Positions 7,999 to 26,217 of a stretch of 37,277 bases of DNA are shown in pieces. How positions within the stretch are numbered: position 1 is the stretch's first letter; each line of letters begins with the position of its first letter. The stretch is taken from the NCBI GenBank assembly GCA_007129405.1, contig SKVN01000129.1, positions 1-37,277 on the forward strand, written 5' to 3'. The notes beneath the pieces are model-generated. The model searched no databases. It was not told the origin of the DNA and saw nothing but the letters and a program-made list of their open reading frames with translations. The translations under genes were made by a program, and so were the position numbers. This DNA comes from Kiritimatiellia bacterium (lineage in GTDB: Bacteria; Verrucomicrobiota; Kiritimatiellia; UBA8416).

Positions 7999-9675
7999 TC
8001 AGCTTTTGGGAACGAACACTTCCATATTCAAGCGCAGGTCACCCTTCTGTTTGAGTGTATCTATGAAGTATGGAATATTCCCCGTCGCAACATAGCGCCC
8101 TTTTACCCTTCCATCCGCATCAAAATCTTCCTGTTTGAAAACAAATATATCCTGCATCAGAATAACGTCCCCTTCTCGCCCCGTAACCTCGGAAATATGC
8201 GTAATTTTTCGCGATCCATCCACGAGGCGGCTTTGTTGTACAATCAAATCAAGGGCCGAAGCCACCTGCTCACGAATCGCACTGGACGGCAAATCAAAAC
8301 CAGCCATCATGACAAGATTTTCTAGACGACCAAGTGCATCGCGCGGGTTATTAGCGTGGATCGTGGTGAGCGATCCGTCATGTCCGGTATTCATTGCCTG
8401 CAACATATCCAAAGCCTCCGCCCCTCGACATTCCCCGACGATAATACGATCTGGCCGCATACGCAGCGCATTGACCATGAGATCGCGAATCGATATCCGA
8501 CCACGCCCTTCGATATTGGGGGGGCGCGATTCGAGACGAACCAGATTACGATGGCTTAACTTCAATTCCGCAGAATCCTCGATGGTAACCACGCGCTCGC
8601 CCAAAGGAATAAATTGCGAAAGCACATTTAGCAATGTCGTCTTGCCCGACCCGGTTCCGCCCGAAACAATCATATTCTGCCGTGCACGCACCGCTTCCTC
8701 CAAGAACAGGGCGATTTCCGGCGTCATGGAGCCGAACCGAATGAGATCATCTGTCGTCAATTTCGTTTCGGCGAATTTGCGAATCGTAATAGAGGGGCCG
8801 TCCAGCGCCAGCGGAGGGATAATAGCATTCACACGTGAACCGTCGGGTAGCCGCGCATCCACCATCGGGCTCGCTTCGTCTACATGGCGGCCGAGCGGCT
8901 CAACAATACGTTGAATAATATGTATCATATGCCGGTCATCCATGAATTTCGCACCGGTTTCAAAAAGCCGCCCTTTCAGCTCAACAAAAATACGATCCGC
9001 ACCGTTCACCATGACCTCGTCTACATCTTTTTCGCGCAACATCGGGGAGATGGGACCATAGCCAATCAACTCATCTTCCATAACCTCACGAAACAATTCC
9101 ATGTCGGTGCCACGCGGCAACTCGTGCCGGATCTCACGCAGTGCAGCATCCAACGCCCCACCCAGCTTGGCACGCATGGATTCGTCTTCTATTTCCTGTG
9201 CCGCTACCTGCGCTAAATTCAGTTTACTCAAAACCATTTCGTGAATACGCCGTTTCAACGCCATCATATCCACTGTATAAAACGCAACATAAGGCGCGAA
9301 ACGCTTATCGACCGCAGCAGGTTTTTCGGCATGTTTCTTATCGCGCAACGGAGGTGGTGGACGCATCGAATCAGTCGGCACTAACGTTTTGTCCAACGAG
9401 TACAAGAGATGATGATCTCCAACTTGAATCGTATCGCCCTCCGATAGAACTTGCGGCCCCTCGATACGCATACCATTCAGAAGCGTGCCGTATGTACTGC
9501 CACAATCTTTGAGTACGAACACACCGTTCTGGGCGATCACCTCGGCATGTTTTCTCGATACGTTTTTCCCCTCTAGAACAATCTGATTTCCAGGTGAACG
9601 ACCGATGACCGTTTGCCCCTGTTTGTCCAGAACAAACGGTTCACTCACCCCGGATTTCAGAATCAAATAGGACAT
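7999..9675 (-). CDS. cpaF: FHA-CpaF/TadA fusion: pilus assembly ATPase with N-terminal FHA domain
   Basis: FHA motif (VIGRSPGNQI...VSRKHAEV...STYGTLLNG) followed by a full CpaF ATPase (Walker A SGGTGSGKTT, PDRIIVGECRGAEALDMLQAMNTGHDGSLTTIHANNPRDAL). The ORF track starts at 9750, but Met at 9675 avoids overlap with the secretin gene ending at 9683. Confidence 0.93.
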   Translation of the reverse strand: MSYLILKSGVSEPFVLDKQGQTVIGRSPGNQIVLEGKNVSRKHAEVIAQNGVFVLKDCGSTYGTLLNGMRIEGPQVLSEGDTIQVGDHHLLYSLDKTLVPTDSMRPPPPLRDKKHAEKPAAVDKRFAPYVAFYTVDMMALKRRIHEMVLSKLNLAQVAAQEIEDESMRAKLGGALDAALREIRHELPRGTDMELFREVMEDELIGYGPISPMLREKDVDEVMVNGADRIFVELKGRLFETGAKFMDDRHMIHIIQRIVEPLGRHVDEASPMVDARLPDGSRVNAIIPPLALDGPSITIRKFAETKLTTDDLIRFGSMTPEIALFLEEAVRARQNMIVSGGTGSGKTTLLNVLSQFIPLGERVVTIEDSAELKLSHRNLVRLESRPPNIEGRGRISIRDLMVNALRMRPDRIIVGECRGAEALDMLQAMNTGHDGSLTTIHANNPRDALGRLENLVMMAGFDLPSSAIREQVASALDLIVQQSRLVDGSRKITHISEVTGREGDVILMQDIFVFKQEDFDADGRVKGRYVATGNIPYFIDTLKQKGDLRLNMEVFVPKS

Positions 9676-9682
9676 ATCTTTT

Positions 9683-11236
9683 CTACCTGAAGAAGTATCG
9701 GCGGCTTCGCTGTTCCCGTTCACGTTGCTGCACAGGCTTTTGGGCTTCAACTTCTACACGCGGACTTGTTTCAGACAAAGGCAAGGTTTCCCGTACACGA
9801 GGTGCGCCAGCTAAATTCGGGCTAATCATGATCAGCACCTGATTCTCCTCCTGCACGCGATTTCGCTCCGAAAACAACCATTGTAATACCGGCACGCTGC
9901 GCAGAAAAGGAACCCCTTCACTTGAAGACTGTTCTACCAAACCACGCATCCCCCCCAGTACCAACGTATGTCCAAGCGGACAACTTATTGTTGTACTAAT
10001 CGTATTACGTTTAAGATCATAATCGGTGCCTACCGGCATCGGATAACTCAGTTCCAAATTCAATTCCAATGACACATTATCCGAATCACTCAATCCTCCT
10101 CGTGCACGCAAAATCATGCCATAGTCGATATCTTCCAACCCCACAGTATCCCCTGCAGCTACACGAACCTTAAGCGTACCACCGCTTTGATATTGGCTCC
10201 AATCCGGTGAATCGTTTCGAAACGACATGTGTCCCTCCTGTACGAAACGCCCCGGCCCTGTTCCCCGGAAAAACGTCAATGCCCCCTGCAACCCGCTACT
10301 GATTGTATACGCCCCGCCAAAACCACTGGATCGATCTCTCCCGATTGTACCTTGAAAAGCGGCCGAAGTGGTATCGATGGCTAGAACACCGGCACGCACC
10401 AAATTGACGCCGATCTGTTGATACTCCACATCGCTTACCCCGACAAAAGCCACTTCGACTTCAAGCATTGTGGGAATCACTTCCGTTTGCAAAAGCGCAC
10501 GCACACGCGCATCTCCCTCTCTGACCTGATCCAAGCTATCTACCACAACAAGCCAAGGGTGCGTACGAACAACATCTTGCAACCGGCGCTCGTCACGCGC
10601 TGCATATAGCTGCGAAGCGATAAAGATCGTATTCCCCGACCAGCGTAAGCGCACCTTACCCGGCTCCAACGGTTCATCTGCTTCCAGTAACGTGAAACCA
10701 GCCTGTTTCAAAGAATCGGTTAGCTGATTCATGACTTCCGGAGCGGGTCGGAACGTGGCCAAATTAACAACCTTTCCTTCATAGATGCGAATGACGCGTT
10801 GCAGCATATCCCAATTGGCGATACTGTTGACTTCCCCCCTGACGACGACCCGACCGAGGTTGACACTCAGTTCCACTTCCGGTACGGAGTCCAGATCCCG
10901 CATCATGGCCATTAACACATCATTGATGTTTTCCACGACCGTAACCTGAAACACCTGATCCCGGCCACCGCCGGTGACCAGCAAATCGGTGGATCCCAAA
11001 GCCCGACCGGAAATCTGTAGCCGCCGTTGGCCAGGCAATTGTGTCGCCGTGATCACCTCGCGGTTGACAATGGTATAACCCTCAATAATAAAAGGGACCT
11101 CCACAATTTCTGCAGACCCAATGCTCACGGTCAGGGACTCCGGTTGGGCTCGCCCTGCAAGCGCAGAGCAGAACAATACGCAACAGACCATGATCATCCA
11201 CAGCAATCCCGACACCTTGTTGTTTTGCGCTTTCAT
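9683..11236 (-). CDS. cpaC: Tad secretin RcpA/CpaC
   Basis: 517 aa with signal peptide, N-terminal pilus/BON-like region and C-terminal secretin domain (LELNLELSYPMPVGTDYDLKRNTISTTISCPLGHTLVLGGMRGLVEQSSSEGVPFLRSVPVLQWLFSERNRVQEENQVLIMISPNL). Confidence 0.92.
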   Translation of the reverse strand: MKAQNNKVSGLLWMIMVCCVLFCSALAGRAQPESLTVSIGSAEIVEVPFIIEGYTIVNREVITATQLPGQRRLQISGRALGSTDLLVTGGGRDQVFQVTVVENINDVLMAMMRDLDSVPEVELSVNLGRVVVRGEVNSIANWDMLQRVIRIYEGKVVNLATFRPAPEVMNQLTDSLKQAGFTLLEADEPLEPGKVRLRWSGNTIFIASQLYAARDERRLQDVVRTHPWLVVVDSLDQVREGDARVRALLQTEVIPTMLEVEVAFVGVSDVEYQQIGVNLVRAGVLAIDTTSAAFQGTIGRDRSSGFGGAYTISSGLQGALTFFRGTGPGRFVQEGHMSFRNDSPDWSQYQSGGTLKVRVAAGDTVGLEDIDYGMILRARGGLSDSDNVSLELNLELSYPMPVGTDYDLKRNTISTTISCPLGHTLVLGGMRGLVEQSSSEGVPFLRSVPVLQWLFSERNRVQEENQVLIMISPNLAGAPRVRETLPLSETSPRVEVEAQKPVQQREREQRSRRYFFR

Positions 11237-11281: not shown

Positions 11282-12070
11282 CTATTGCACGGGAGCCCCC
11301 CGGCGATCAGGCACTTGGGGCACCGCGACAGAATTTAACCCTTGCAAAAGTTCCCGGAACGTTTCTTCATCCACCATTCCCGCGTCCATCCGATTGAGAC
11401 TGCTGTCATCGTTGGGACGTCGCAATGCCAAGGTAATATCTGCACGCCGCTGCGCGGCAATCAAAACCTGCGCCTGCTGCGGAGGCAATGCCAAAATGAT
11501 ATCACTGCCGCCTCCGCCAGCACCCTGTGCGCTGGTTACATCCAGCACACGTACACGAGGAAACAGAACCAGTGTAGCTTCTTTCGTCGTCACGACTTCT
11601 GGAGCTGCGAGGTCAGTTGTTCGCTCCAAAACTTCGACCTTGAAATTACCGATGACCGCTACTTCATCCCCCGGCTGCACCAATCGTCCGAGACCAGAAC
11701 GAGGCAACGTCAAAGAGACGGCCCACTCGCCCTCCCCAACCACATTGGCCAAACTCCGTGAAAACCCCACATCAGACAATAGAACATAATCATTCACAGT
11801 CACCGGACGTAACGCTTTTTGCCCAACAATCATTTCACCACGCGTCCAAGCGATAGCTTGTGCAGGCAACGCCGATACAGGAATCTCTTTGGGACGAATA
11901 ATATCCTGCGTGATTTCCTGCCCCTGCTGGATATCGCGCGCAGCAGCAACAACCGTAATCGTATCCTCTTGCGCATGGCGTTGAGCCGACAATAAACGCC
12001 CTACAGCCAATACGGCCGCCAAACCAAGAACAACAGCTAAGATCAATGGAATAAAATTCTTCATATGCAC
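11282..12070 (-). CDS. cpaB: Flp pilus assembly protein CpaB/RcpC (SAF domain)
   Basis: 262 aa. N-terminal TM, then SAF-like VVAAARDIQQGQEITQDIIRPKEIPVSALPAQAI...VQPGDEVAVIGNF. Sits immediately upstream of the secretin gene. Start may be 12064. Confidence 0.9.
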   Translation of the reverse strand: MHMKNFIPLILAVVLGLAAVLAVGRLLSAQRHAQEDTITVVAAARDIQQGQEITQDIIRPKEIPVSALPAQAIAWTRGEMIVGQKALRPVTVNDYVLLSDVGFSRSLANVVGEGEWAVSLTLPRSGLGRLVQPGDEVAVIGNFKVEVLERTTDLAAPEVVTTKEATLVLFPRVRVLDVTSAQGAGGGGSDIILALPPQQAQVLIAAQRRADITLALRRPNDDSSLNRMDAGMVDEETFRELLQGLNSVAVPQVPDRRGAPVQ

Positions 12071-12641: not shown

Positions 12642-13326
12642 AAGGTTCATGCCGCTCATGCTCGAAACCAGGCGGTTCGGGCGGAGCCGCAGGGGCAAAG
12701 GTGAGTTCCCCGGCTGAGGTCCCTGCCAAATCGCCGACTTCTGGCCAATCCTCCTGAAAAACAGCCCAATCCCATGGTAGACTCCAGTCAGCCAGCTCTT
12801 GCGGCGACCATGTCCTGTAGGCAATTTCACTGAACGGAGTCCGCATGAGAACGGCATGATGGGAAGGCCCATCTGCAGCATCCGGATCGCGCCCCGTAAA
12901 AACCGCTAGATTAGCGAGGGCGGGCGCACCATCCCAAGCAACGCCAGCACGCAGCCAACCCTCCGTCCATAGAGGCATAAACATCATGAAATCAACTCTT
13001 GCCCCAAAATACGTGGACCATGTTTCGGGAGTACCACGTTCATATTCCACGCTCTCAACACGTTGATCCCCCACATTCTCGAAGGGAAACAAATACTCTT
13101 GTATATCCTGCTCAATGCGCTCTTTGGCCAACATGTGCCGGTTCCCGCCGCTCCAGGCAGCATAGCGATCCGCACTGACCAGCTTACACTTCGCGAGAAT
13201 AATATCACCCAACCACATCGTGCCGCCAATCATCACCACAAACAATGCCACCGCAATCACGAGCTCCATCAGTATGACGCCCTCGCGTGCATCACGCTTT
13301 CGATCTTTATTCGTGAAAGGAATCAT
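12622..13326 (-). CDS. Pseudopilin-like protein with class III prepilin-type N-terminus
   Basis: MIPFTNKDRKRDAREGVILMELVIAVALFVVMIGGTMWLGDII has G|VILMEL (Glu at +5) before a hydrophobic helix. Likely start 13326; the ORF track starts at 13395. Confidence 0.65.
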   Translation of the reverse strand: MIPFTNKDRKRDAREGVILMELVIAVALFVVMIGGTMWLGDIILAKCKLVSADRYAAWSGGNRHMLAKERIEQDIQEYLFPFENVGDQRVESVEYERGTPETWSTYFGARVDFMMFMPLWTEGWLRAGVAWDGAPALANLAVFTGRDPDAADGPSHHAVLMRTPFSEIAYRTWSPQELADWSLPWDWAVFQEDWPEVGDLAGTSAGELTFAPAAPPEPPGFEHERHEPYVEWSY

Positions 13327-13642
13327 GATAATCCCGCGCTCTATCAGAGTATTCCTGCATATCTTGCCGACGTTTATGCAAACTTTCCTGTGCATCGGTA
13401 TGACGCAGCGTGGTACCCTCAGATGCCGTAATCATGGAAGCGACAATTGCGCGCCCCAACACAACGACTGCCATACCACATGCAACCGCTATGAGCACGG
13501 CCAAAATCACATATTCCATTTGCACGGCCCCCGTGCGGTCACCCCAATGACGACGCATCCCCTTCCGCCGTACGAAAGGCCATCGGTTTGCGCCTCCCCG
13601 CTTTCGTATTAGTGTAGCGTCCATCCTTCCAATGCTCTCCAT
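13307..13642 (-). CDS. flp: Flp-type prepilin with extended charged C-terminus
   Basis: DRTG|AVQMEYVILAVLIAVACGMAVVVLG is a canonical Flp processing site G|XXXXEY. The C-terminal tail ends ARDYHDSFHE. Confidence 0.82.
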   Translation of the reverse strand: MESIGRMDATLIRKRGGANRWPFVRRKGMRRHWGDRTGAVQMEYVILAVLIAVACGMAVVVLGRAIVASMITASEGTTLRHTDAQESLHKRRQDMQEYSDRARDYHDSFHE

Positions 13643-15186
13643 TCAGGTTCTCCTCCTCTCATTCCATCCGGTGCTACCTGTACCCCGACAGCACCGCCCC
13701 CACCATATAGCGGTTGCCATGAACCAAAACGCACTTCTTCCAAAATCTCACCCGCCGTTTCGCCATGAAATGAACCGGCCATTGCATCTGCCCACGCCCG
13801 ATGCAACGGCAGCATCACCGCGTCCCAATCCGTGTTCATCAGATTTTGCTCAATCAGGCCACCGTCCCAAAACGTGGGATCATATTCACCATTGCTATAG
13901 CCGGGCCAATGCGGATTAAAGGCTGCCCGCGCAGCACTCGCCGTCCACATAAAACGTTCATACTCATTCAGCGTCAAACCTTTGAAAATGCCTTCCTGTC
14001 CCTTGGCACGATACAGAAAAAACAGTGGATTATTCATGCGCCGCGCCACGCCAACCACAATGGCTCCTTCTTCACCAAAAAATTCCGGCAGTAGCCATAG
14101 CGGTTTGGCATGTTCCGTCTCGGCAAAATAGTCTCCGCCAATCACGCTTTCTGCCTCCAGTTCGTTATCCCCGGACTGGGACGTAATCAACACACAAACA
14201 CCCTCTACCATTTGCCAAAGAGCCCCATACCAATCCCAATTCGCCACAAGCCGCCCCGTTTGCTTATAGCGACGCTGAAACCCTTCGCCACCTGGAGAAT
14301 CCAATATCCACCAATCATCCGTACCAAGATCAAAGGCCTCAAAGGGATGCCTGTAGACATCCGTGAAGTTTAGGAAATGCGCTTCCTCACCATCGGGCAT
14401 GACTTCTGTATACGCGGAAAGGGGGTGAAAGGATTGAATCAACTGCCAGGAAATATCGGCACCGCCAGCCAACAGGTCGTTACGCGTATCTCGGATGTTT
14501 TTACGTAACACCGCCTCCACCTGCTCCTCTATCCGTTCCGGCAACAACGCGAACAGATCCTCCTCGGCCTCATTCATCTGCATAATAATCTTCCGAAGCT
14601 CTTGAATCGGATCCTGCAATGCTTCCCAACTCTTCTCTGCGGCAGCAGCACGTTCACGTGCCATTTCAATATCCTCAGCCGTGACCCAGATACGATTATT
14701 GATAAAAACAGATTCCTTGTGCACATGACGGCTCAATCCGGCGTACCAATCGCCTTCATTGCAATTACTGGGCGCACTGATACTATAGGCCAAATCGCGA
14801 TCAATTTCCCAAAGCAGCAACACTTCTTCCAGCCATTTATCTACGATATAGTCCATGTTCATGCGACCCAGTTGTACATAGGTCCATGCCATGGCGCGAT
14901 TAATCACGGCTACCCGAGAAAGCGTGTCGGCCTGAACCACAGCCGCAGAATAGGCCGCGGCATCAGCGGCGTTCTGAAGTTCAATACGTTGACGAACGGT
15001 TTCCCCTACGGCATATACGGCAAAACTCATGACAAAAAGAAGCAGAAAGCTCAAAACCGTAACCGCCAATACCGCGCCATCTTCATCACGGTACAAACGC
15101 AGACATCCACGACTCAGCCGAAGCACCAGCGAGGGTCTCCCACCGGGACACGGTTTAGGCATAGTCAATCGAAACGCCATCACCAA
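13609..15186 (-). CDS. TadG-like pilus assembly protein
   Basis: 525 aa. RDEDGAVLAVTVLSFLLLFVMSFAVYAVGETVRQRIELQNAADAAAYSAAVVQADTLSRVAVINRAMAW matches the TadG/'putative Flp pilus-assembly TadE/G-like' N-terminus. Lacks Glu at +5. Confidence 0.82.
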   Translation of the reverse strand: MVMAFRLTMPKPCPGGRPSLVLRLSRGCLRLYRDEDGAVLAVTVLSFLLLFVMSFAVYAVGETVRQRIELQNAADAAAYSAAVVQADTLSRVAVINRAMAWTYVQLGRMNMDYIVDKWLEEVLLLWEIDRDLAYSISAPSNCNEGDWYAGLSRHVHKESVFINNRIWVTAEDIEMARERAAAAEKSWEALQDPIQELRKIIMQMNEAEEDLFALLPERIEEQVEAVLRKNIRDTRNDLLAGGADISWQLIQSFHPLSAYTEVMPDGEEAHFLNFTDVYRHPFEAFDLGTDDWWILDSPGGEGFQRRYKQTGRLVANWDWYGALWQMVEGVCVLITSQSGDNELEAESVIGGDYFAETEHAKPLWLLPEFFGEEGAIVVGVARRMNNPLFFLYRAKGQEGIFKGLTLNEYERFMWTASAARAAFNPHWPGYSNGEYDPTFWDGGLIEQNLMNTDWDAVMLPLHRAWADAMAGSFHGETAGEILEEVRFGSWQPLYGGGGAVGVQVAPDGMRGGEPEWRALEGWTLH

Positions 15187-15797
15187 CCTCCCGCAGGTAC
15201 ACCGGTTGGGTACATCGTCTTGAAAGGTTTAGCCACAAGGGCGGATTCTCGTAAAACAACATGCGGATACGCTACGGTATCTAAATACCGATGCGCGTTA
15301 CCGGTAGGGTCGGCGCGGGTCTCAAGCCACTCCGTGCCCTGCCCCCACGGATTGACAGCCCACGCGATCATCGGTCCGGCAATCGGCATGATCAAACCAA
15401 AATCAAACTCAACATCTACACGGTAATTCCAATCGTCAATCGCCTGCACCTCCACACGTGTCTTTCGATCAATCGAACCCGAGCCTGGAATGAGTCCCCA
15501 CCCCGGAACTTCTTTCGGAATTTCACCAAATGCCTGCCCGATCACCGTCCAAGACAGCACCTGCTCGGCGGCCTGTTGGGCGGCATCCTCATATTCAGAT
15601 TCATGCGCCGTGAGTATAGTCCGCGCCGCTGCCGTCGCAGCATAATAAACAACCAGCCGCGCCGTCCATATATGCGCAATCTGCATGCAGGCGAAAAGGA
15701 GTGCCAGCATTAAAGGAAAAGCGAAAACAAATTCCAGAAGTACCGAGCCGTAACGATCCGTTCTGTGATCCCTACTTTTCACATCACGCCTACCCAT
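15180..15797 (-). CDS. tadE: TadE-like pseudopilin
   Basis: 205 aa. DRYG|SVLLEFVFAFPLMLALLFACMQIAHIWTARLVVYYAATAAARTI is the TadE signature. Confidence 0.87.
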   Translation of the reverse strand: MGRRDVKSRDHRTDRYGSVLLEFVFAFPLMLALLFACMQIAHIWTARLVVYYAATAAARTILTAHESEYEDAAQQAAEQVLSWTVIGQAFGEIPKEVPGWGLIPGSGSIDRKTRVEVQAIDDWNYRVDVEFDFGLIMPIAGPMIAWAVNPWGQGTEWLETRADPTGNAHRYLDTVAYPHVVLRESALVAKPFKTMYPTGVPAGGW

Positions 15798-16297
15798 AAC
15801 GTAGTCATCATCCCAATCGCAATTGCCATACTGAACGGCATGCGCACACGCTCATCAACACGCGAAGGAAGCGTCGCAGATCCTGCCTTCCGATCATACC
15901 ACGGATTCAAAATCGATTGTATAAAATGCGAAACCCGCACGGAACTGACCGCCCCCGCCGCAAGTAGTGTAATCGCCATAACCATGCCAGCCAAAGATGT
16001 TAAAATCAACAAATCCAGCAGTCCGCCCCAGCCGACCGCCGCACCGGCAGCAAACATCATTTTTACATCGCCACCGCCAGCCGCCCGCATGAGCCACGGC
16101 AAAACCAAAAACAAGCCCGCCACAGACGCCGCTGCAAATGCCGCCACCAATCCGGGCGCACCATACAGAAGATACTGCACCAACAGAAATCCAAACGCCC
16201 CACCCAACGTCAACACATTGGGTAAACGGCGAATGTTAAGGTCGTATCCGCATAGAACAGCACACCATAAGCAGTAGACAACCAGCAAGGCGGTCAT
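15779..16297 (-). CDS. cpaA: CpaA/TadV-type prepilin peptidase (A24 family)
   Basis: Start Met at 16297 (MTALLVVYCLWCAVLCGYDLNIRRLPNVLTLGG). Retains both Asp motifs of the A24 family (YDLNIRRLPN; GGGDVKMM) in a multi-TM protein. Confidence 0.85.
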   Translation of the reverse strand: MTALLVVYCLWCAVLCGYDLNIRRLPNVLTLGGAFGFLLVQYLLYGAPGLVAAFAAASVAGLFLVLPWLMRAAGGGDVKMMFAAGAAVGWGGLLDLLILTSLAGMVMAITLLAAGAVSSVRVSHFIQSILNPWYDRKAGSATLPSRVDERVRMPFSMAIAIGMMTTLWVGVM

Positions 16298-16400
16298 AGT
16301 CCACCCTCTCCCTTGTCGTATCGGCCCGCACACGACAGGGTCCGCATCAAACCAGCGGGCATCTGGCCGGAATCGCACCGACCAGATACCTGACCAATTT

Positions 16401-16715
16401 CTATTGGTGCATGCTATCGTGGTAATCCCGAGCAGCTTGCGCATCAGCGTCTTGCTGTGCCCGCGTCGCCTCTTGGGCTTGGCGCGCTCCCGTATGGTCC
16501 GCCGTTGCACCTTTGCCTGCAGTATCGAACATACCCACAATCGTGCGACCGAACATAGCGACCGCCACAACCGCTGCAGCAGCGATCAACACCGCGAGAA
16601 TCACATATTCCATCATCACGGCCCCTGTCTTGTCACCAGCCAGACGACATAGCAAACGACCCAATACCGTACGTTTTGCACGCTGAACCATTACCTGCAT
16701 CCTTACCGTACTCAT
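16401..16715 (-). CDS. flp: Flp-type major prepilin candidate with extended charged C-terminus
   Basis: 104 aa. DKTG|AVMMEYVILAVLIAAAAVVAVAMFGRTI, then Gln/Ala/Asp-rich tail ending ARDYHDSMHQ. Confidence 0.87.
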   Translation of the reverse strand: MSTVRMQVMVQRAKRTVLGRLLCRLAGDKTGAVMMEYVILAVLIAAAAVVAVAMFGRTIVGMFDTAGKGATADHTGARQAQEATRAQQDADAQAARDYHDSMHQ

Positions 16716-16780: not shown

Positions 16781-17113
16781 TCATGGAATCGGAAGCGCGA
16801 TACCGGACATGATGCGGCGATATGCCTCCACCATGCCATTACCCAATAAACCGTAGTCTTCCCCTGTCAGTGTATCGTCCATCGTCAAAGCCGTCCCCGT
16901 TGGATTGATGATACCTGAAGTCACGCCGATGAAGAACAAGATAATGATGGTATTGACCAATACGTACTCCAGCAAAACGTCACCCCGCCGGTCTCTTCGC
17001 AACCGACTGCACCAACCTTGTCTGGAAATTGCCAATCGCACTCTCATGGCTGTATCCGACGATAATATTGTAAAAAAAGCAAGACGAATAATCCTCGCAA
17101 GAAGATTTTTCAC
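16781..17113 (-). CDS. Flp-like minor prepilin candidate
   Basis: RDRRG|DVLLEYVLVNTIIILFFIGVTSGI has a G|XXXXEY site. Likely start Met at 17047. First gene of the minus-strand cluster. Confidence 0.75.
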   Translation of the reverse strand: MKNLLARIIRLAFFTILSSDTAMRVRLAISRQGWCSRLRRDRRGDVLLEYVLVNTIIILFFIGVTSGIINPTGTALTMDDTLTGEDYGLLGNGMVEAYRRIMSGIALPIP

Positions 17114-17186
17114 ATTTTTTTAAATTTGACAAACATCACAATTCCAAGCAGTCTCACATAGCACGTATGCAAAACAGGAGACAGCC

Positions 17187-18272
17187 GTGGCGCAAGATAG
17201 CTCCAATTCCTTTTTAGTTTTGTTCTTCGAACCTATTCGCGTTTTTTTGGAAGATGATAATGTTTCTGAAATTCTAATCAATGGCCCCGACCAAATCTAC
17301 GTGGAGCGGAAAGGGCGCCTGGCTAAAACCGAAGCGCGCTTTGTCAGTGAACCTGCACTGCGTGCGGCGGCCACAAATGTAGCCAAAAGCGTAAATCGTC
17401 TATTAAATGATGAACAGCCTCGCTTAGACGCTCGTCTGCCTGACGGGTCGCGGGTACACGCTGTCATTCCTCCCTTATCCGTCAAAGGCACGGTCGTAGC
17501 CATCCGTAAATTCCGCAAAGAAGCATTGACGCTCGAACAGTTGGTTCATTTTGAAAGTCTCGACCAGACGGGGGTTACCCTCATCGATGTCGCCGTGAAA
17601 CTGCACAAAAACATCATGGTTTCTGGTGCAACGTCTTCGGGAAAAACATCTGTCCTGAATGTTTTGAGCAGTTGCATTGGTCCCACGGACCGGATTCTTG
17701 TAATCGAGGACGCCAGCGAGCTGCAATTAATGCAGGATCATGTCGTAAGCTTTGAAACACGAAAACCCGACGCCAAAGGAAAGGGAGAAGTCACGATCCG
17801 CGATCTGGTGCACTCCTCATTGCGTCTTCGCCCCGACCGATTGGTTATCGGCGAAATCCGGGGAGGCGAAGCACTCGACCTGCTCCAGGCATTGAACACC
17901 GGACACGCAGGCAGCATGTCAACCATTCATGCCAATAGCCCACTCGATTGCCTGTCGCGTCTGGAAACTTGCGCACTACTGAGCGGCATCGAAATCCCCT
18001 TGAGCGCTTTGCGATCACAGGTCGCCTCAGCCATTGATATGGTAGTACATACAGCGCGTTTATCGGATGGAAGTCGAAAAATCACAGAAATTGCAGAAGT
18101 CATGCCACTGACCGATGGACAATATGTAACGCATCCACTGTATCGCTACACCATGGACCATGTGGATGCAGAAGGCAGGATTGTCGGCAAACATGAAGCT
18201 ATAGGACGTCCCTCTTTTCTGGATCAAGCCCGCATAGAAGGATTGCCACTGGATCCCTCCCTGTTTCCCTAG
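17187..18272 (+). CDS. Second CpaF/TadA-family secretion ATPase, no FHA domain
   Basis: 361 aa, GTG start with AGGAG at 17176-17180. Walker A SGATSSGKTS, RPDRLVIGEIRGGEALDLLQALNTGHAGSMSTIHANS. Divergent from the pilin operon. Confidence 0.92.
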   Translation: MAQDSSNSFLVLFFEPIRVFLEDDNVSEILINGPDQIYVERKGRLAKTEARFVSEPALRAAATNVAKSVNRLLNDEQPRLDARLPDGSRVHAVIPPLSVKGTVVAIRKFRKEALTLEQLVHFESLDQTGVTLIDVAVKLHKNIMVSGATSSGKTSVLNVLSSCIGPTDRILVIEDASELQLMQDHVVSFETRKPDAKGKGEVTIRDLVHSSLRLRPDRLVIGEIRGGEALDLLQALNTGHAGSMSTIHANSPLDCLSRLETCALLSGIEIPLSALRSQVASAIDMVVHTARLSDGSRKITEIAEVMPLTDGQYVTHPLYRYTMDHVDAEGRIVGKHEAIGRPSFLDQARIEGLPLDPSLFP

Positions 18273-18279
18273 GACGGCC

Positions 18280-19068
18280 ATGAAAAAAGCTTTTCAACAT
18301 CTTGATGCGGCCTTTACTACCGATCCGGGACGGATCCGCAAAACAAATGAAGACGCCGCACTGGTCGCCACGGAGCAAGGCTTGTTCGCCGTGGCAGATG
18401 GCATGGGCGGTGGAGCCTGCGGGGAAGTAGCAAGTCGGTGCGTAATTCAAGCTCTGACATCCTATCGTTCACAAAACGATATACCCGAAAAAGGAATCAA
18501 ACAAATCCAGGAAATTGTCCAAAAAGCCAATGCGCACATCTACAACATGGCACACGAACAAAACCTGTCGGGTATGGGCACCACTCTGATCCTAATGCTT
18601 TTTCATGCAGAGCGACCCGATCGAGCCACGCTGCTGCATGCAGGCGATAGTCGCGCCTACCGTTTGCGCGGACGCAAATGGACGCAACTGATGACCGATC
18701 ACTCGCTAGAAGCGGACAGACGAATCCCCCGACGGAAAATGATCCCGTATTTACGCAACATCATCACACGCGCCATTGGGATTCGAGAAACCGTCGAATT
18801 GGAACAAAATGCATGCACCATTGCGCCGGGTGACCTTTTCCTGCTTTGTTCTGACGGATTGTATAACATGATTGCCCCCAGAAAGCTTAAACGATTCATG
18901 CGAAAACATTGCGAGATTGCGCTCAAGAATCTATCCGGTCTACTGGTGGATGAAGCAAACAAAAATGGTGGCAAAGACAACGTAACTGCACTACTCATCC
19001 GCGTCGGTCACCCCGATATCGCAGAAGACAAACCAACAACCGACACCGTCAAAATATTGAAAGCATAA
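18280..19068 (+). CDS. PP2C-family Ser/Thr protein phosphatase
   Basis: 262 aa. RKTNEDAALVA, AVADGMGGGACGEVAS, GMGTTLILM, LLHAGDSRAYRLRG, MTDHS, LLCSDGLYNMI, GGKDNVTALLI: PP2C motifs and metal-binding Asp residues intact. Confidence 0.95.
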   Translation: MKKAFQHLDAAFTTDPGRIRKTNEDAALVATEQGLFAVADGMGGGACGEVASRCVIQALTSYRSQNDIPEKGIKQIQEIVQKANAHIYNMAHEQNLSGMGTTLILMLFHAERPDRATLLHAGDSRAYRLRGRKWTQLMTDHSLEADRRIPRRKMIPYLRNIITRAIGIRETVELEQNACTIAPGDLFLLCSDGLYNMIAPRKLKRFMRKHCEIALKNLSGLLVDEANKNGGKDNVTALLIRVGHPDIAEDKPTTDTVKILKA

Positions 19069-19105: not shown

Positions 19106-19134
19106 TTGACGAATCCATGGTTATGCTTTCTAAA
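19106..19134 (+). promoter_or_regulatory. Candidate sigma70-like promoter for the kinase gene
   Basis: TTGACG (19106-19111), 17-nt spacer, TCTAAA (19129-19134), about 53 nt upstream of the RBS-supported ATG at 19188. Confidence 0.4.
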
Positions 19135-19187
19135 TGTTCGATGAGGCTGAAGGTGACGCTTGGTCAAATACGGGTAGGAGGCCATTT

Positions 19188-22103
19188 ATGATCGACAAGG
19201 GCACAAACGACAAGAATGCATCACAATCCGACAGCGACTTTGAGCGAACGATTCCTACGATAGCACCCAGCAGCCCCCCCACTCCGGCTCCGCCTCCCAA
19301 GGAAAATAGCGTCGCCGGTTCCTCTTCCTCGAACACGGAATCCCATGCTTCCCCCGAGTCTTCCTCTCCGAATACAGCATCGGCACCCGCAACCTCAACG
19401 GGGCTCTCAACAAGTCAAGGGTACAAGGAAGACGACGTGATACTCGGGCGGTACCGCGTAGACGGCGAACTGGGCAAAGGCGGCATGGGAGTCGTCTACC
19501 GATGTACGGACTTGGTAGGCGATGTGCGTGTGGCTGTAAAAACCATTCCCCCTGAAATATCCTGGAATGCGGAGGAAATTGAAGAAATCCGAGATAACTT
19601 TCGCTTGGTAGAACGCCTCCATCACCCGCATATCACTGATGCAAAAACCATCGAACGTGACCCGGCCAACGGGCAGTATTTTCTCGTCATGGAACTGGCA
19701 GACGGTATTAACCTGCGCCAATATAGAAAGAAAATGGGTGGCTCCCTCCCCATGGAGGAATGCATCAATCTTGGGCGGCAAATCGCATCTGCACTAGATT
19801 ACGGGCACAGCGAGATGATCATACATCGCGATATCAAGCCCAGTAATATTATGATCACCGACTCAGGCAAAGTGAAGGTATTGGACTATGGCATTGCCAG
19901 CCAGTATCACGAATCCATGTCCCGTGTAACCAACGCAAAATACGAAACCAGCGGAACGGGTCCCTACATGGCACCGGAACAATGGATGGGTGAGTTTCAA
20001 GATGCAAAAACCGATCAGTACGCTTTAGCTGTTCTGCTATACGAATTGTATGACGGAAAACCGCCATTCACCAACCCGGACTTACAGATTCTAGGGCAGG
20101 CTGTACGCAAAGAACAACCACCCAAGCCCGAAGGCATGACAAGTCAAACTTGGGCCGTTTTCCGGAAAGCTCTTTCCAAAAAGCGCAAGGATCGATTCAA
20201 AAGTTGCTCCGAGTTCATTGTTGCTTTGGAAGAAGCACAGGGAGGCTTGGAATCCATCATGGCCAAACGGAGAGTACGATACGGAATCGTCGCCGCTGCA
20301 GCCGCGCTCGTCATTATGCTTGCTCTCACCGCCCTGCTAAACAACACGAAAAAGAACAATGCCACACAACTTCATCAACAAGCCATCGCAGCGGTGGAGA
20401 TGCGAAATTGGTCTGAAGCCGCTCGTCTTCTTGAACGCAGTATCACGCTGCACGAAAAACAACCTGATGCGCAGGCATTGCTGGACCGCATTCGATCACG
20501 CGGAAGAATCAGCCTGACCAGTTCACCAACCACTGCGGAAGTGTGGGTGGATGGACGTCGTCTAGGAACAACCCCCATGATCATCGATCAGTTGTCAGAA
20601 GACCCGGTGATTGTTGAATTGCGCGCCGATGGCTACCGCCCATATCGCCAGAGTCTCACGGTCCGGGAAAACCGCACCGAAGAACACCATGCAACGATGC
20701 TCGGAACAGGACAGCTCCGCATAACCAGCAATCCGGAAGGTGCCGAGGTATTCCTCAATGGGCGGTCCGTAGGGCAGACTCCCGCCAATATCAGCAGTTT
20801 GGAAAGCGGTGAATATGACGTGCGGATCATACACGAAGGATTTCGATCGCAGGAACGAACCATTCAGTTCGCGACCAATCAATCACGGGATCTGAATTTT
20901 GGGGCACTCGTTCCCTTGCACGGTACCGTAACAATTGAAACCACGCCGAGCGGGGCCTCGGTGCAGCTAGGCTCCGAATCCGGCATCAGTCCAGCCACTT
21001 TTTCGCAAATTCCGGTAGGCACCCACACGGTAACAGTAGCATTGCATGATCACGAAAAACAAATAGAGTCAATAACGGTCGAGGACGGGGCGAACCTGCA
21101 TAAGACTTGGACGCTGTCACGCTTGGAACAAACCGATGCCCCACCAACCGCAGATCCCACCGAACCCGCCACAACGAGAGATCCGAAAACGGCAGTTGAT
21201 GTACCGACTCGTCGTGCGACCACACCGACTCTCACGGAAGCCCGCCAAACCGACGGCCTACAGCCAAAAGCACGCGTTGTGGTGGCCCCCGCTTCATTCG
21301 ATTCTGTGGCGCGCGCGCGGTTTATACAAGAAGCGGAAACCATGTTCGATATCCCAGCAGCAACGATCGCGGATAATCTGGGCTTTACTCGGCACCTTAC
21401 CGATGCTCTCTTTCATTTGCATGCATTCGACATGCTTGAACAAAATGCCGTCCACACCGCCATGCAAAAACTGGATTTGGACCGCGCCAACGCTGTAAAT
21501 CAGAATCAAGCTGTAAAGATGGGCGAAGAGCTACAAGCAGACTTTGTCGTTATACCGGAAATTCAATCCCTTTCCACCACGGTAGAAAGGCGCGAAATCC
21601 CCATTGTAAACAGGATGCGTACCACATTAAGAGGGAATTTCGGCATTCATGTGCGCGTCGTGGATGTACAATCTTCACGGATCGTGTCCACTTGGCAACG
21701 TCAGGTCGACCTGCAAGAGCGATTGGACAACGACACCACTGACCATGGCGCGAAAGGGCTGCAATTCATCAATCGCCTATACGAGCAAGCGGCCAGGGAG
21801 GCTAGTCGGGAAATTGTCGATGCCGTGCATCCCCTGCGGATTGTCGCAATTGACGGACGCCAAATTACGCTTAACCGCGGACAAGGGGCCGTTCAAGAGG
21901 GTGACCTTTTCGTAGTCTATAAACAAGGAGAACCCATTCTGGACCCCGACACCCAGGCCCCTCTCGGGCATGCTGAACAAATCACAGGAGAAATTCGCGT
22001 AACTCAGGTGTTGCCCCGTATGAGCATCGCCGAAGCAATCGGAGACTCCGATTCAATGAATGTCCGAGATATCTGTCGCCCCAAAATTACTGAAGAACAA
22101 TAG
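19188..22103 (+). CDS. Transmembrane Ser/Thr protein kinase with PEGA-like repeats and CsgG/FlgT-like extracytoplasmic region
   Basis: Kinase motifs GELGKGGMGVVY, VAVKTI, HRDIKPSNIM, DYG, MAPEQW; TM YGIVAAAAALVIMLALTALL; three PEGA-like repeats (ISLTSSPTTAEVWVDGRRLGTTP; LRITSNPEGAEVFLNGRSVGQTP; VTIETTPSGASVQLGSESGISP). AGGAGG at 19176-19181 supports a start at 19188 rather than 19134. Confidence 0.93.
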   Translation: MIDKGTNDKNASQSDSDFERTIPTIAPSSPPTPAPPPKENSVAGSSSSNTESHASPESSSPNTASAPATSTGLSTSQGYKEDDVILGRYRVDGELGKGGMGVVYRCTDLVGDVRVAVKTIPPEISWNAEEIEEIRDNFRLVERLHHPHITDAKTIERDPANGQYFLVMELADGINLRQYRKKMGGSLPMEECINLGRQIASALDYGHSEMIIHRDIKPSNIMITDSGKVKVLDYGIASQYHESMSRVTNAKYETSGTGPYMAPEQWMGEFQDAKTDQYALAVLLYELYDGKPPFTNPDLQILGQAVRKEQPPKPEGMTSQTWAVFRKALSKKRKDRFKSCSEFIVALEEAQGGLESIMAKRRVRYGIVAAAAALVIMLALTALLNNTKKNNATQLHQQAIAAVEMRNWSEAARLLERSITLHEKQPDAQALLDRIRSRGRISLTSSPTTAEVWVDGRRLGTTPMIIDQLSEDPVIVELRADGYRPYRQSLTVRENRTEEHHATMLGTGQLRITSNPEGAEVFLNGRSVGQTPANISSLESGEYDVRIIHEGFRSQERTIQFATNQSRDLNFGALVPLHGTVTIETTPSGASVQLGSESGISPATFSQIPVGTHTVTVALHDHEKQIESITVEDGANLHKTWTLSRLEQTDAPPTADPTEPATTRDPKTAVDVPTRRATTPTLTEARQTDGLQPKARVVVAPASFDSVARARFIQEAETMFDIPAATIADNLGFTRHLTDALFHLHAFDMLEQNAVHTAMQKLDLDRANAVNQNQAVKMGEELQADFVVIPEIQSLSTTVERREIPIVNRMRTTLRGNFGIHVRVVDVQSSRIVSTWQRQVDLQERLDNDTTDHGAKGLQFINRLYEQAAREASREIVDAVHPLRIVAIDGRQITLNRGQGAVQEGDLFVVYKQGEPILDPDTQAPLGHAEQITGEIRVTQVLPRMSIAEAIGDSDSMNVRDICRPKITEEQ

Positions 22104-22595: not shown

Positions 22596-23192
22596 ATGCA
22601 TAAATACCGCTTATGGCTCTCCTGCGCCCTTCTTGGAGCATCCGTTTTACCGATTGCTTGCGTTCGCCAACCGACCGTAATGTCCGGATCCGGTCCGCAA
22701 GCCGTTACGCTCAACATTGACGCGCGCGACTACGACCGTATTGCTGCGGAATTATTTAACTCCCTGATGCTGCATGAAGGTCTGAAAGAACATGCGGTCA
22801 TCGCCCTAGCCCCTGTGGCCGAGTCGTTTGATGGCCCCTACAACTTTGATGCGCGCACCTTTCAGGAAAAACTACAGGTACTGGCCATGCGCAGTGGACG
22901 CTTTCGTTTCAGTTTCGCAGTAGATGTGATGGACGGGGAATCCCCCGCAGCAGAACGCATGCGCATTATGCAATTGCAATACGAGAGAGATCGAACGATT
23001 GATCCAGAAGACCTTCGCGTCTTTGGAGGTCTGGTAGATATTGATTACATGATTTTTGGCCGGGTTAGTTCCGTAACGTCACAATTAGGCCGACGCCGGG
23101 AAGTTACCTTTAATTACAGTTGGCGCTTAGGCAATACCGTTAATGGCCTTTTGGAATGGGGCGACGAAGCATCCATCACCAAAAGCCGCTAA
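22596..23192 (+). CDS. LpoB-like outer-membrane lipoprotein
   Basis: 198 aa, lipobox LPIAC. ARDYDRIAAELFNSLM...NFDARTFQEKLQVLAMRSGRFRFSF...RTIDPEDLRVFGGLVDIDYMIFGRVSS resembles LpoB (PBP activator). Confidence 0.72.
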   Translation: MHKYRLWLSCALLGASVLPIACVRQPTVMSGSGPQAVTLNIDARDYDRIAAELFNSLMLHEGLKEHAVIALAPVAESFDGPYNFDARTFQEKLQVLAMRSGRFRFSFAVDVMDGESPAAERMRIMQLQYERDRTIDPEDLRVFGGLVDIDYMIFGRVSSVTSQLGRRREVTFNYSWRLGNTVNGLLEWGDEASITKSR

Positions 23193-23198
23193 CCAGAA

Positions 23199-23855
23199 TT
23201 ACCATGTAAGTGGCAATTTACCTACCGCATCTTCTAGCGCCGCACGGCATGCAAGTCCCACCATACTCTCATCCACGGCCCAGATGCCCTCACCCTGCCG
23301 CATATGATCTCGATCCACAGTAACAACCACGCCCCATGCCCCCACTTCCGACCGACCACGCCCTTCCACTACAACGTCCGGATGCCCGGCGCGTTTCAAG
23401 CGCACGCGCACGGTAGCCCGTGCAAATCTCCGCTGTCGAGACACGAGACCAACCCGAACCGTTCCTCCTAATCGCTCCTCCAGATTCACGATATGAACAG
23501 AAACAAACCCCTCTGGTTTGGCATGCTCCATTTCCTCAGCAGACACATTCGCATCTAGGTCGCTCCACCGCAACGCCACCTCCGGATCCAGTAACATACG
23601 GTAGTTACGATGCCGCTCCAGTGCACCGATCGCTTGATCAACCATATAACGTTCTACCGCATCCATAAACGCAGGGTCCTCGACGTCCACCTCATGCGTC
23701 ACCCCCGTCATTTGCACATAAGGCCCCGTCGGCTCAAAATTCCGCGATCCTTGACGTGACGTATCCACCTGCGTCCGCGTCACCCCACCGCAACCCGTAA
23801 CCACCATCAGCATGCCGATTGTCAGCACGGGCATTGTATATATCATAAACTTCAT
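23199..23855 (-). CDS. Lipoprotein of unknown function
   Basis: 218 aa with lipobox MVVTGC. Translationally coupled (ATGA, 23852-23855) to the upstream LpoB-like fusion gene. Confidence 0.7.
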   Translation of the reverse strand: MKFMIYTMPVLTIGMLMVVTGCGGVTRTQVDTSRQGSRNFEPTGPYVQMTGVTHEVDVEDPAFMDAVERYMVDQAIGALERHRNYRMLLDPEVALRWSDLDANVSAEEMEHAKPEGFVSVHIVNLEERLGGTVRVGLVSRQRRFARATVRVRLKRAGHPDVVVEGRGRSEVGAWGVVVTVDRDHMRQGEGIWAVDESMVGLACRAALEDAVGKLPLTW

Positions 23856-25075
23856 AATGTGCGCTCCCTCCGTCGTAACATACGATGAACCAAACGATCC
23901 GACGCAATACGGGCCGCTTCCGATGTCGCCGTTAACAAGTCATCCGCACGTGCTTCACCTTTGGCAATCACAGGCACATTGACATGCGCGCCGTCCAGCT
24001 CGTACAAGCTCAAAAAGATTTCCACATGATACTGCGTAGTTCGATGCACCGTTCCGAACCGAAGGGTTTCCGTCTTACTCTCAAAGAAATTCATGTTCGG
24101 AACCAGAATATTGGATGGTATACGATGCGAGATCCGGCGTTGCGCATCCGTTAACACGCCTCCCGTCTGACCCATCAGCAACGATTCGAGCACAGGAAGA
24201 TCAATCGGCGGTACCGTAACCACTTCCAAAACGTCGGTATCATAAAGCATATCTTCAAGAGTATGCCAGATAGCGTGCCCATAGCCCTGTTCTCGCCATT
24301 GACGGACCAACTCCGGATAATCGCGTTCACTATGCGCATGAAAGGCCGTCGGGGCCACCAGCACGGGAATGCGCGCCAGAGCGGGGTCAAACCGACCATC
24401 AATACGCGGCCCCGCTTTGGTAAACTGCTCCTGATCAGCCCATAAAACCAACCCTGACTCACATTCACCCAACTGCCATGTATAGGTATAGGTTACTTCC
24501 GTGCGATTCCCGACTGTCGTGGTTTGGCTGCTTACACGGCCGAAAAGAAGAAGGTCGATGTCTGCCAGCCCCCCCAGCGTGCGTAAATCCTCCGGACGCA
24601 CGGCACTTTCCCTTTCCCATTGCAATCGCATCAAATCATACCGCGAATGGGCAGCGGACCGACCCGCCATGGCATCTGCGGCAAATAAAACACGAAAACG
24701 TTGCGACTGCACCAGGCGCGTTTGAATCTTGTCCGCCAGCAGGCGGGCATCGAAACGATACTGGCATTGGGCGGAATCCACAGGCCCCATGACAACCACG
24801 CGAGGAATGTTTGGTATATCCGCCAGAAGCAGCGAATCCGCCATCGCATTGGCCACGAGATCGTAGTCTTGCGGATTCACACCAAAGGTAACCAAACGTG
24901 CCTGATCTCTTACCTCCACCGAAGAAGGCGCGATACATCCTCCCGACAAAAACACCATGACCATCGCCACATAGCCGGAAAACACCCGAGAAACAGCCCT
25001 GTTCCCCCGCAACAATGTCCTTAATCCATTATGGCTTTGAAAAAAAATAATAGCGTCTCTCCAATCGCACGTCAT
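23852..25075 (-). CDS. LpoB-like/CsgG-like two-domain lipoprotein
   Basis: 407 aa. Signal and Cys region (MVMVFLSGGC), LpoB-like half (RPEDLRTLGGLADIDLLLFGRVSSQTTTVGNRTEVTYTYTWQLG) paralogous to the 22596 gene, then a second CsgG-like half (GYGHAIWHTLEDMLYDTDVLEVV...). N-terminal start uncertain. Confidence 0.65.
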   Translation of the reverse strand: MTCDWRDAIIFFQSHNGLRTLLRGNRAVSRVFSGYVAMVMVFLSGGCIAPSSVEVRDQARLVTFGVNPQDYDLVANAMADSLLLADIPNIPRVVVMGPVDSAQCQYRFDARLLADKIQTRLVQSQRFRVLFAADAMAGRSAAHSRYDLMRLQWERESAVRPEDLRTLGGLADIDLLLFGRVSSQTTTVGNRTEVTYTYTWQLGECESGLVLWADQEQFTKAGPRIDGRFDPALARIPVLVAPTAFHAHSERDYPELVRQWREQGYGHAIWHTLEDMLYDTDVLEVVTVPPIDLPVLESLLMGQTGGVLTDAQRRISHRIPSNILVPNMNFFESKTETLRFGTVHRTTQYHVEIFLSLYELDGAHVNVPVIAKGEARADDLLTATSEAARIASDRLVHRMLRRRERTL

Positions 25076-25158: not shown

Positions 25159-26217
25159 TCAGAACACCCAATTAGAACCAATATAGACTTCCGTAGATTT
25201 AACATTTTTTGCCCCTACAGCGGTCTTGAGGCCGCTGGAGAAGGACCATGCCCCGCGGACCCATGCTACATCCAAACCAATGTCTGAGTAAAGATCATCG
25301 ACGCTATCGGAGTCAAAGTTCTTGTAGTTGATCAAGTAACCGTTCAGGGCAACGGCTTCGGACAAGTTGTAGCCCATGTTGACCGCAGGCACTACTTCGA
25401 TGAGGACATCACCCTCATTGGGTTTGGTGATCTCGAGCAGTAACCCTCCAGACACGATCCAATCGGGGTGAAAACGATAGCTGTATCCCACGAAAGGACC
25501 GCCACCAAAAGTCACGGCCGTATCGTCACCGCCAAAAAATCCCATTCCATAAAGATGCGCACCTACAATAAAATTCTCCATTGTCCCTGTAAACGGATAT
25601 TTGAATGCCCCGTCAAGACCAGTCCCGAAAACAGTATCACCGCCCTTTGGACTGATGACATGCAGTGGCAAGGTCAGAGTCAAGTCATACGTTTCGCCCC
25701 ACGTCGCAGAAGGGTTGATACCGAAGCTCTGACCTTTTACTTCACTGAGATAGCCCTCAATTTCCCACACATTCAAGAAGATATCAGCCGAACCAGAGTG
25801 CAATCGCCCGACATTCGGAATGCTTTCATAAAACGGCTGACTTGGTGTCGGCTGATCCACGGCAGGAGCAATCGGTGCCGGTCTACGCTGCTCGGTTCGC
25901 GGTCGCGCCTGCACAAAAACCGTCTGGCGGATGATCTTATTAACCGCGATGCTGGAACTCGAGGCAGCATGACCTGCATCACTGGCAACTTCACTTCCCG
26001 CATCACCGACATATCGCCAATGCATTCGATTTCCGAAATAAATGTCATTCCCCACAAAGTGTCGCCCACCCCCGGCAACGCAATCAGCCGGACCAGTCAA
26101 AATGCAATGCACACGTTCATAGCGCTTACCATCATAGTACCCGTAATTGCCCAACGCCAGAGCCGTCTGCATTGTCAATAAGACAATCGTAAACGCAAAT
26201 ATAATACTCTTCTTCAT
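25159..26217 (-). CDS. Outer-membrane beta-barrel-like protein, tandem paralogue 1
   Basis: 352 aa with signal peptide, Pro-rich linker, alternating Gly/aromatic C-terminal half ending in Phe (GSNWVF). Strong similarity to 26373..27374. Confidence 0.72.
   Translation of the reverse strand: MKKSIIFAFTIVLLTMQTALALGNYGYYDGKRYERVHCILTGPADCVAGGGRHFVGNDIYFGNRMHWRYVGDAGSEVASDAGHAASSSSIAVNKIIRQTVFVQARPRTEQRRPAPIAPAVDQPTPSQPFYESIPNVGRLHSGSADIFLNVWEIEGYLSEVKGQSFGINPSATWGETYDLTLTLPLHVISPKGGDTVFGTGLDGAFKYPFTGTMENFIVGAHLYGMGFFGGDDTAVTFGGGPFVGYSYRFHPDWIVSGGLLLEITKPNEGDVLIEVVPAVNMGYNLSEAVALNGYLINYKNFDSDSVDDLYSDIGLDVAWVRGAWSFSSGLKTAVGAKNVKSTEVYIGSNWVF

Follow-up and report, generated by a model that had tools for sequence, protein, structure and literature searches.

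The Tad pilus locus of a Kiritimatiellia bacterium raises the question of what a second CpaF-type ATPase does in a system that is generally credited with one. In Caulobacter, a single CpaF drives both directions. According to a 2026 paper, every Tad pilus relies on a single bifunctional ATPase (PMC13170226), and the only ATPase duplications listed by Denise et al. 2019 are PilB/PilT and PilT/PilU, with no PilT in Tad systems (PMC6668835). Searches of literature outside subscription journals yielded no description of a second CpaF, or of one lacking the three-helix bundle (3HB), within one Tad locus. A sequence-only reading of the window, which is the whole 37,277-nucleotide stretch of DNA that was analysed, had proposed that two catalytically intact CpaF-type ATPases share this locus. 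Both are present, and the pairing is conserved across relatives.

The tad genes proper lie on the minus strand. They encode a CpaC secretin (9683-11236), a CpaB/RcpC protein scoring above its NCBIfam cut-off (11282-12070), a TadG-like protein with the Pfam Tad domain (13609-15186), TadE (15180-15797) and the CpaA prepilin peptidase of the Peptidase_A24 family (15779-16348). The ordinary motor of the locus is CpaF1 (7999-9750), a class III protein with the order FHA, 3HB, N-terminal domain (NTD) and ATPase domain, in which Pfam detects FHA (1.4e-19) and T2SSE. Next to it are the T2SSF platform proteins TadB/CpaG (7084-7998) and TadC/CpaH (6197-7084), an FHA/YscD-like protein (4389-6194) and a protein with two FHA domains (2094-4385). 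A Flp pilin with the motif GAVMMEY (16401-16715) scores 21 bits for Flp_Fap, below the cut-off of 32.2, and a second Flp-like pilin with GAVQMEY (13307-13642) has weak Pfam support. The G-x4-EY cleavage motif of these two minus-strand genes also occurs in a third gene on the same strand (16781-17113), which is more weakly pilin-like. No TadZ/CpaE gene is recognized within the window.

The second ATPase gene, cpaF2 (17187-18272), is on the plus strand. The 73 bp that separate it from the divergent tad operon (17114-17186) gave nothing above chance in a promoter scan. A PP2C-family Ser/Thr phosphatase gene begins 7 bp 3' of cpaF2 (18280-19068, plus strand) and is followed by a gene for a Hanks-type Ser/Thr kinase that spans the membrane, contains three PEGA domains and has a C-terminus weakly similar to LpoB/FlgT (19134-22103, plus strand). 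Judging by an AGGAGG element, the true start of the kinase is probably 19188 rather than 19134. The sequence-only reading was correct to group cpaF2 with this phosphatase and kinase. Farther along, two mutually similar LpoB-like lipoproteins are encoded in opposite orientations (22596-23192, plus; 23852-25075, minus), and a tandem pair with near-identical C-terminal halves (25159-26217 and 26373-27374, minus) looks like outer-membrane or secreted proteins.

The cpaF2 reading frame occupies exactly 17187-18272, comprises 361 codons and starts with GTG, six bases after an AGGAG sequence (17176-17180). The protein consists only of an NTD and a C-terminal ATPase domain. T2SSE is its sole Pfam match (E 5.8e-53), and its best relatives of solved structure are the Caulobacter CpaF entries 8rkd and 9e24 (E about 1e-94 over 344 residues). 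It is identical to CpaF1 at 148 of 340 residues (44%). CpaF2 had been described as FHA-less, which is accurate but understates the difference, because the entire 3HB (NTD1) is gone as well and the sequence begins at the NTD. An in-frame stop 5' of the gene caps the stop-to-stop frame at 380 amino acids and permits no more than 19 extra N-terminal residues, so an N-terminal domain cannot hide upstream. An AlphaFold2 model of CpaF2 built from a two-row alignment had a mean pLDDT of 39.7 and was discarded.

CpaF2 has the core of a CpaF/TadA protein, namely an NTD joined to an ATPase domain with the full set of catalytic motifs. These are a Walker A sequence GATSSGKT (within GATSSGKTS, residues 147-155, 17625-17651), an Asp box, Walker B, GEIRG, a His box and both Arg fingers. 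A survey of 292 CpaFs recognizes three architectures, with a 3HB in all of them and 3HB-NTD-ATPase as the minimum (PMC12019362). CpaF2 falls outside these classes I-III, since no 3HB precedes its NTD. It also does not group with neighbouring families. The PilT/PilU model TIGR01420 gives it 45.4 bits (cut-off 319.1), and the VirB11/TrbB models give 214 and 215 bits (cut-offs 250 and 305). The TrbB/VirB11 conjugation ATPases resemble CpaF2 in lacking a 3HB; however, it stays below their cut-offs, and the window contains no conjugation (virB/trb) genes.

The clade to which CpaF2 belongs is widespread. A search covering 346 genomes of the class together with a phylum-wide sample of 388 separates CpaF2 orthologues (at least 423 bits) from ordinary CpaFs (at most 382 bits) by a clean gap. 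Within the class, 44 genomes including the source genome carry an orthologue, and 31 genomes of other classes do so as well. These approximately 75 carriers in the phylum span about 22 families, and most of their CpaF2 proteins are 65-74% identical to that of the window. Clear orthologues in so many genomes, set apart by this gap in score, indicate that the observation is not due to chance. The distribution is patchy, and CpaF2 is absent from the only other genome of the window's genus included in the search, which is 68% complete. None of the 65 CpaF2 sequences analysed contains a 3HB. At least ten relatives have stop-to-stop frames of 344-364 amino acids that leave no space for one, whereas nearly all other CpaFs have at least 100 residues ahead of the NTD. 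In five relatives, an FHA-like stretch is joined directly to the NTD. The similarity is weak (hhalign probability 75.8%; E 0.014 against the EmbR FHA structure in the PDB, others worse), and Pfam finds no significant match in the four of these N-termini that were searched. The clade is thus better defined by the absent 3HB than by an absent FHA domain.

CpaF2 proteins combine an intact catalytic center with changes at sites that matter in Caulobacter. In Caulobacter numbering, K287, E308, D309, E312, R347, E357, H382, R217 and R223 are invariant in all 65 sequences, which also keep both the lysine and the threonine of Walker A. Close CpaF2 pairs have dN/dS values of 0.01-0.09, one saturated pair aside, as expected for strong purifying selection. 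The invariant catalytic residues and the low dN/dS exclude the suggestion that the second ATPase is a dead decoy. Most members carry GATSSGKTS where other CpaFs have GGTGSGKTT, making TSSGKTS a signature of the clade. The window protein has lost both hinge-1 glycines, G147 and G149. Their equivalents belong to an F-F-E sequence (residues 13-15, 17223-17231) that places F13 and E15 at these positions, and the G147 position is F in 64 of 65 CpaF2 proteins. The platform-contacting central loop, E331-G-S-G in Caulobacter, is K-G-K-G in the window protein (residues 197-200, 17775-17786). Glutamate occupies the E331 position in 71 of 73 other CpaFs and in 0 of 65 CpaF2 sequences. In loop 8, D208 is D in 73 of 73 other CpaFs and N in 34 of 65 CpaF2 proteins. 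In Caulobacter, mutation of the hinge glycines abolishes CpaF function and constructs lacking the 3HB are undetectable in vivo (PMC11300603, PMC12019362), while mutations at the E331 and D208 positions also abolish function (PMC11300603). With its platform loops changed in this way, CpaF2 may not contact TadB/TadC at all.

Phylogenetic analysis shows that the two ATPases are distant relatives and not sisters, a comparison that the sequence-only reading had proposed. Under a site-heterogeneous model, the CpaF2 sequences form a clade with support of 94/96 to 96/95, and those of window-type CpaF1 form a separate one (100/99). A branch with support of 100/99 places all 3HB-bearing CpaFs on one side, including those of Caulobacter, Arthrobacter, Vibrio and Burkholderia. 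CpaF2 and a second ATPase from Rhizobium (see below) fall on the other side with the TrbB/VirB11 outgroup, which is distant and itself lacks a 3HB. Because the 3HB-bearing proteins group to the exclusion of CpaF2, it looks like an old lineage instead of a new duplicate of CpaF1. The tree speaks against a recent tandem duplication as its origin. Forcing CpaF2 and CpaF1 together costs 26.7 log units, although the corresponding p-AU of 0.065 falls short of formal rejection. A 3HB is also present in FlaI, the ATPase of the archaellum (PMC12019362), so that loss of this element in CpaF2 seems likelier than primitive absence. Subclades of CpaF2 track the type of partner CpaF1. Two other genomes encode CpaF-like ATPases, short (about 425 amino acids) and divergent, that lie outside both groups (C269:20510-21559 and C23:67289-68338); the first of them was placed in the tree.

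These relationships bear on whether CpaF1 and CpaF2 might assemble into mixed hexamers, in which CpaF2 would dilute the subunits carrying 3HB and FHA domains, thereby adjusting platform docking as well as phospho-control. The residues that reach the active site of the neighboring subunit in the ring (R217, R223, D215 and R347) are conserved in CpaF1 and CpaF2 alike, making cross-complementation chemically possible, and the linkage to PP2C and kinase genes described below would suit such an arrangement. Mixing is nonetheless quite unlikely given identity of only about 44% and the separation of the two proteins in the tree. Moreover, the described motors of this superfamily are homohexameric, including PilT and PilU (PMC6821130).

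CpaF2 accompanies CpaF1 far more often than it occurs elsewhere. It is present in 31 of the 37 genomes with a window-type CpaF1, whereas 13 of the 309 genomes without that type have it (Fisher p 6e-28, uncorrected for shared ancestry), and six of the 37 have this CpaF1 without CpaF2. At least eight of the 13 genomes that carry CpaF2 but no window-type CpaF1 encode another CpaF1 lineage on the same contig as CpaF2, and a few CpaF2 genomes have no clear CpaF1 partner. Approximately 30 contigs in the sampled genomes, counting the window, encode both proteins. Neighbors within 9 kb were scored for the 43 CpaF2 loci that are flanked by 3 kb or more of sequence on each side. Of these loci, 24 have tad genes, 29 have a PP2C or kinase gene and 38 have a gene of one or more of the tad, PP2C/kinase and FHA types. 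Single-ATPase Tad loci examined for comparison have a kinase in 2 of 14 cases and PP2C in none of the 14. Two loci (L181 and L182) have, on one strand, the order CpaF1-TadB-TadC-FHA-FHA-PP2C-CpaF2-kinase. The divergent placement of cpaF2 that had been remarked on is real in the window, but it is one arrangement among several and not an essential feature, as co-directional genes are common in relatives.

The source genome contains three CpaFs and only two TadB/TadC pairs in an assembly that is 76% complete. The third CpaF and its own TadB/TadC pair belong to an ordinary single-ATPase Tad locus on a separate contig, leaving one pair for the two ATPases of the window. This ordinary locus (contig C148, 6100-17000) encodes one FHA-CpaF, one FHA protein and a protein with five PEGA repeats. 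It has no kinase or phosphatase gene, and its kinase-like matches proved to be PEGA repeats. Other ATPases in the genome include six PilB/GspE-like and two short PilT-like proteins, and three PilB/PilT-type genes are neighbors on one strand at C126:46253-50249.

Perhaps CpaF2 powers a different filament, built from other pilins or pseudopilins, or a secretion function, and is only a neighbor of the Tad operon. The window does have several pilin-like genes, and some CpaF2 genes are distant from any tad gene, as in two loci (L082 and L083) where the surrounding 8-10 kb lack both Tad and kinase genes. Yet this is a very unlikely explanation in view of the co-occurrence with CpaF1, the co-directional linkage, the layout on Rhizobium plasmids and the absence of a spare TadB/TadC-type platform from the genome at its present completeness. 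The single TadB/TadC pair, the shared contigs and the one-strand gene order likewise argue against the assignment of CpaF2 to an unrelated secretion system, the outcome that the sequence-only reading had named as contrary to its proposal.

A comparable arrangement exists on Rhizobium plasmids. Those with accessions NZ_CP072867.1 and NZ_CP050093.1 each have a Tad operon whose ATPase is extended at the N-terminus (632 amino acids in NZ_CP072867.1) and, beside the operon, a divergent second ATPase of about 384 amino acids without a 3HB. A full reading of the NZ_CP072867.1 locus found one TadB/TadC pair. The second ATPase, WP_246717755.1, is present in 89 plasmid records, all from Rhizobiaceae. 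It has 13 of 29 CpaF2-diagnostic residues, including a K-P-D motif ahead of the central loop, and the tree neither rejects nor establishes a single clade joining it to CpaF2 (p-AU 0.48). The missing 3HB, the orientation relative to the Tad operon, the extended partner and the lone TadB/TadC pair are thus common to both systems. In contrast to CpaF2, the Rhizobium protein has a canonical-type Walker A (GGTGTGKT) and no PP2C or kinase gene alongside. The NZ_CP072867.1 locus (246691-259183) has no annotated secretin or TadZ, ends with an adenylate/guanylate cyclase-domain gene, and has its divergent ATPase annotated merely as a T2SS/T4P/T4SS ATPase.

The genes closest to CpaF2 are most often those for PP2C and the kinase, and CpaF2 differs at the positions that touch the platform in Caulobacter. 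CpaF2 might accordingly be imagined as a regulator, an ATP-dependent partner of the kinase, phosphatase and FHA proteins whose task is to sequester CpaF1 or the FHA proteins or to change them by modification or remodelling. Strong purifying selection on a full catalytic and ring-assembly set is difficult to reconcile with this role, as is the Rhizobium version with no adjoining kinase or phosphatase, and the regulator explanation is considered unlikely. The comparisons of sequences and gene neighborhoods give good support to CpaF2 as a second ATPase that is conserved, under selection and complete in its catalytic residues, and that is linked to a Tad system as well as to a set of phospho-signalling genes. 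It probably works as a second motor for this Tad system.

Which direction such a motor would drive can be judged only indirectly. In type IVa pili, assembly ATPases add an N1D domain to an N2D-CTD core that is common to all of the motors (PMC11656802). CpaF2 and PilT/PilU are similar in being core-only ATPases with a partner motor that carries an extra N-terminal domain, and in providing two motors per pilus, although they are not orthologous and CpaF2 derives from the CpaF lineage. Since CpaF1 and CpaF2 repeat the extra-domain contrast of type IVa pili, retraction is the best guess for CpaF2; a bias in this direction is plausible but has slightly less than an even chance of being correct. The Caulobacter protein resembles CpaF2 in its NTD and ATPase core, its catalytic residues and its surrounding Tad genes, while differing in the 3HB, the hinge glycines, E331, its place within the 3HB clade and the canonical CpaF1 beside which CpaF2 sits. 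Its disordered N-terminus is reported to favor retraction, and loss of this segment lowered retraction (PMC11300603). Direction therefore cannot be read from architecture and could be reversed. If so, CpaF2 might be the main motor and FHA-CpaF1 a phospho-regulated auxiliary. This exchange of roles is highly improbable, because cpaF1 lies between the secretin and TadB genes, adjoining the platform genes just as it would in an ordinary Tad operon, and because its product retains both the 3HB and platform loops of the canonical type and is found without CpaF2 in some genomes.

Phosphothreonine is the ligand of FHA domains, and type VI secretion is gated by a kinase/phosphatase/FHA pathway (PpkA, PppA and Fha). 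The window resembles this pathway in linking a membrane kinase, a PP2C phosphatase and FHA readers. It differs in that the set accompanies a two-motor Tad pilus, and no type VI structural genes are among the annotated window proteins. The Tad-like Kil system of Myxococcus, with an FHA-fused ATPase (KilF) and several FHA proteins, likewise recalls the FHA-ATPase and extra FHA proteins found here. However, Kil, for which control of the kinase/phosphatase/FHA type has also been suggested, is described with one ATPase (PMC8460266).

The preferred interpretation is a two-motor Tad (type IVc) pilus in which CpaF2 is the second, retraction-biased motor and motor use is phospho-gated, a composite picture that is given about an even chance of being right. 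CpaF1 would be the main motor, docked to TadB/TadC through its 3HB. CpaF2 would form a separate hexamer without 3HBs that alternates with CpaF1 on the same platform, serving either as a retraction-biased second motor or as an auxiliary of retraction. The PEGA kinase and PP2C would set a phosphothreonine state that is read by the FHA domain of CpaF1 and by the two FHA proteins. This state may decide which motor is engaged, as in the gating of type VI secretion.

The presence of CpaF2 in some 75 genomes within a single phylum, and of a similar ATPase on rhizobial plasmids, contradicts, at the genome level, the generalizations that Tad systems use a single bifunctional ATPase and that CpaFs have a 3HB at minimum. 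Such second ATPases suggest that Tad pili sometimes split pushing and pulling between two motors, as type IVa pili do. More tentatively, a subtype of Tad pilus may have evolved a dedicated retraction motor and a kinase/phosphatase/FHA switch across distant phyla, in a pairing that stands apart from PilB/PilT and PilT/PilU. CpaF2 constitutes a natural experiment on the role of the 3HB and on how a single platform reverses direction.
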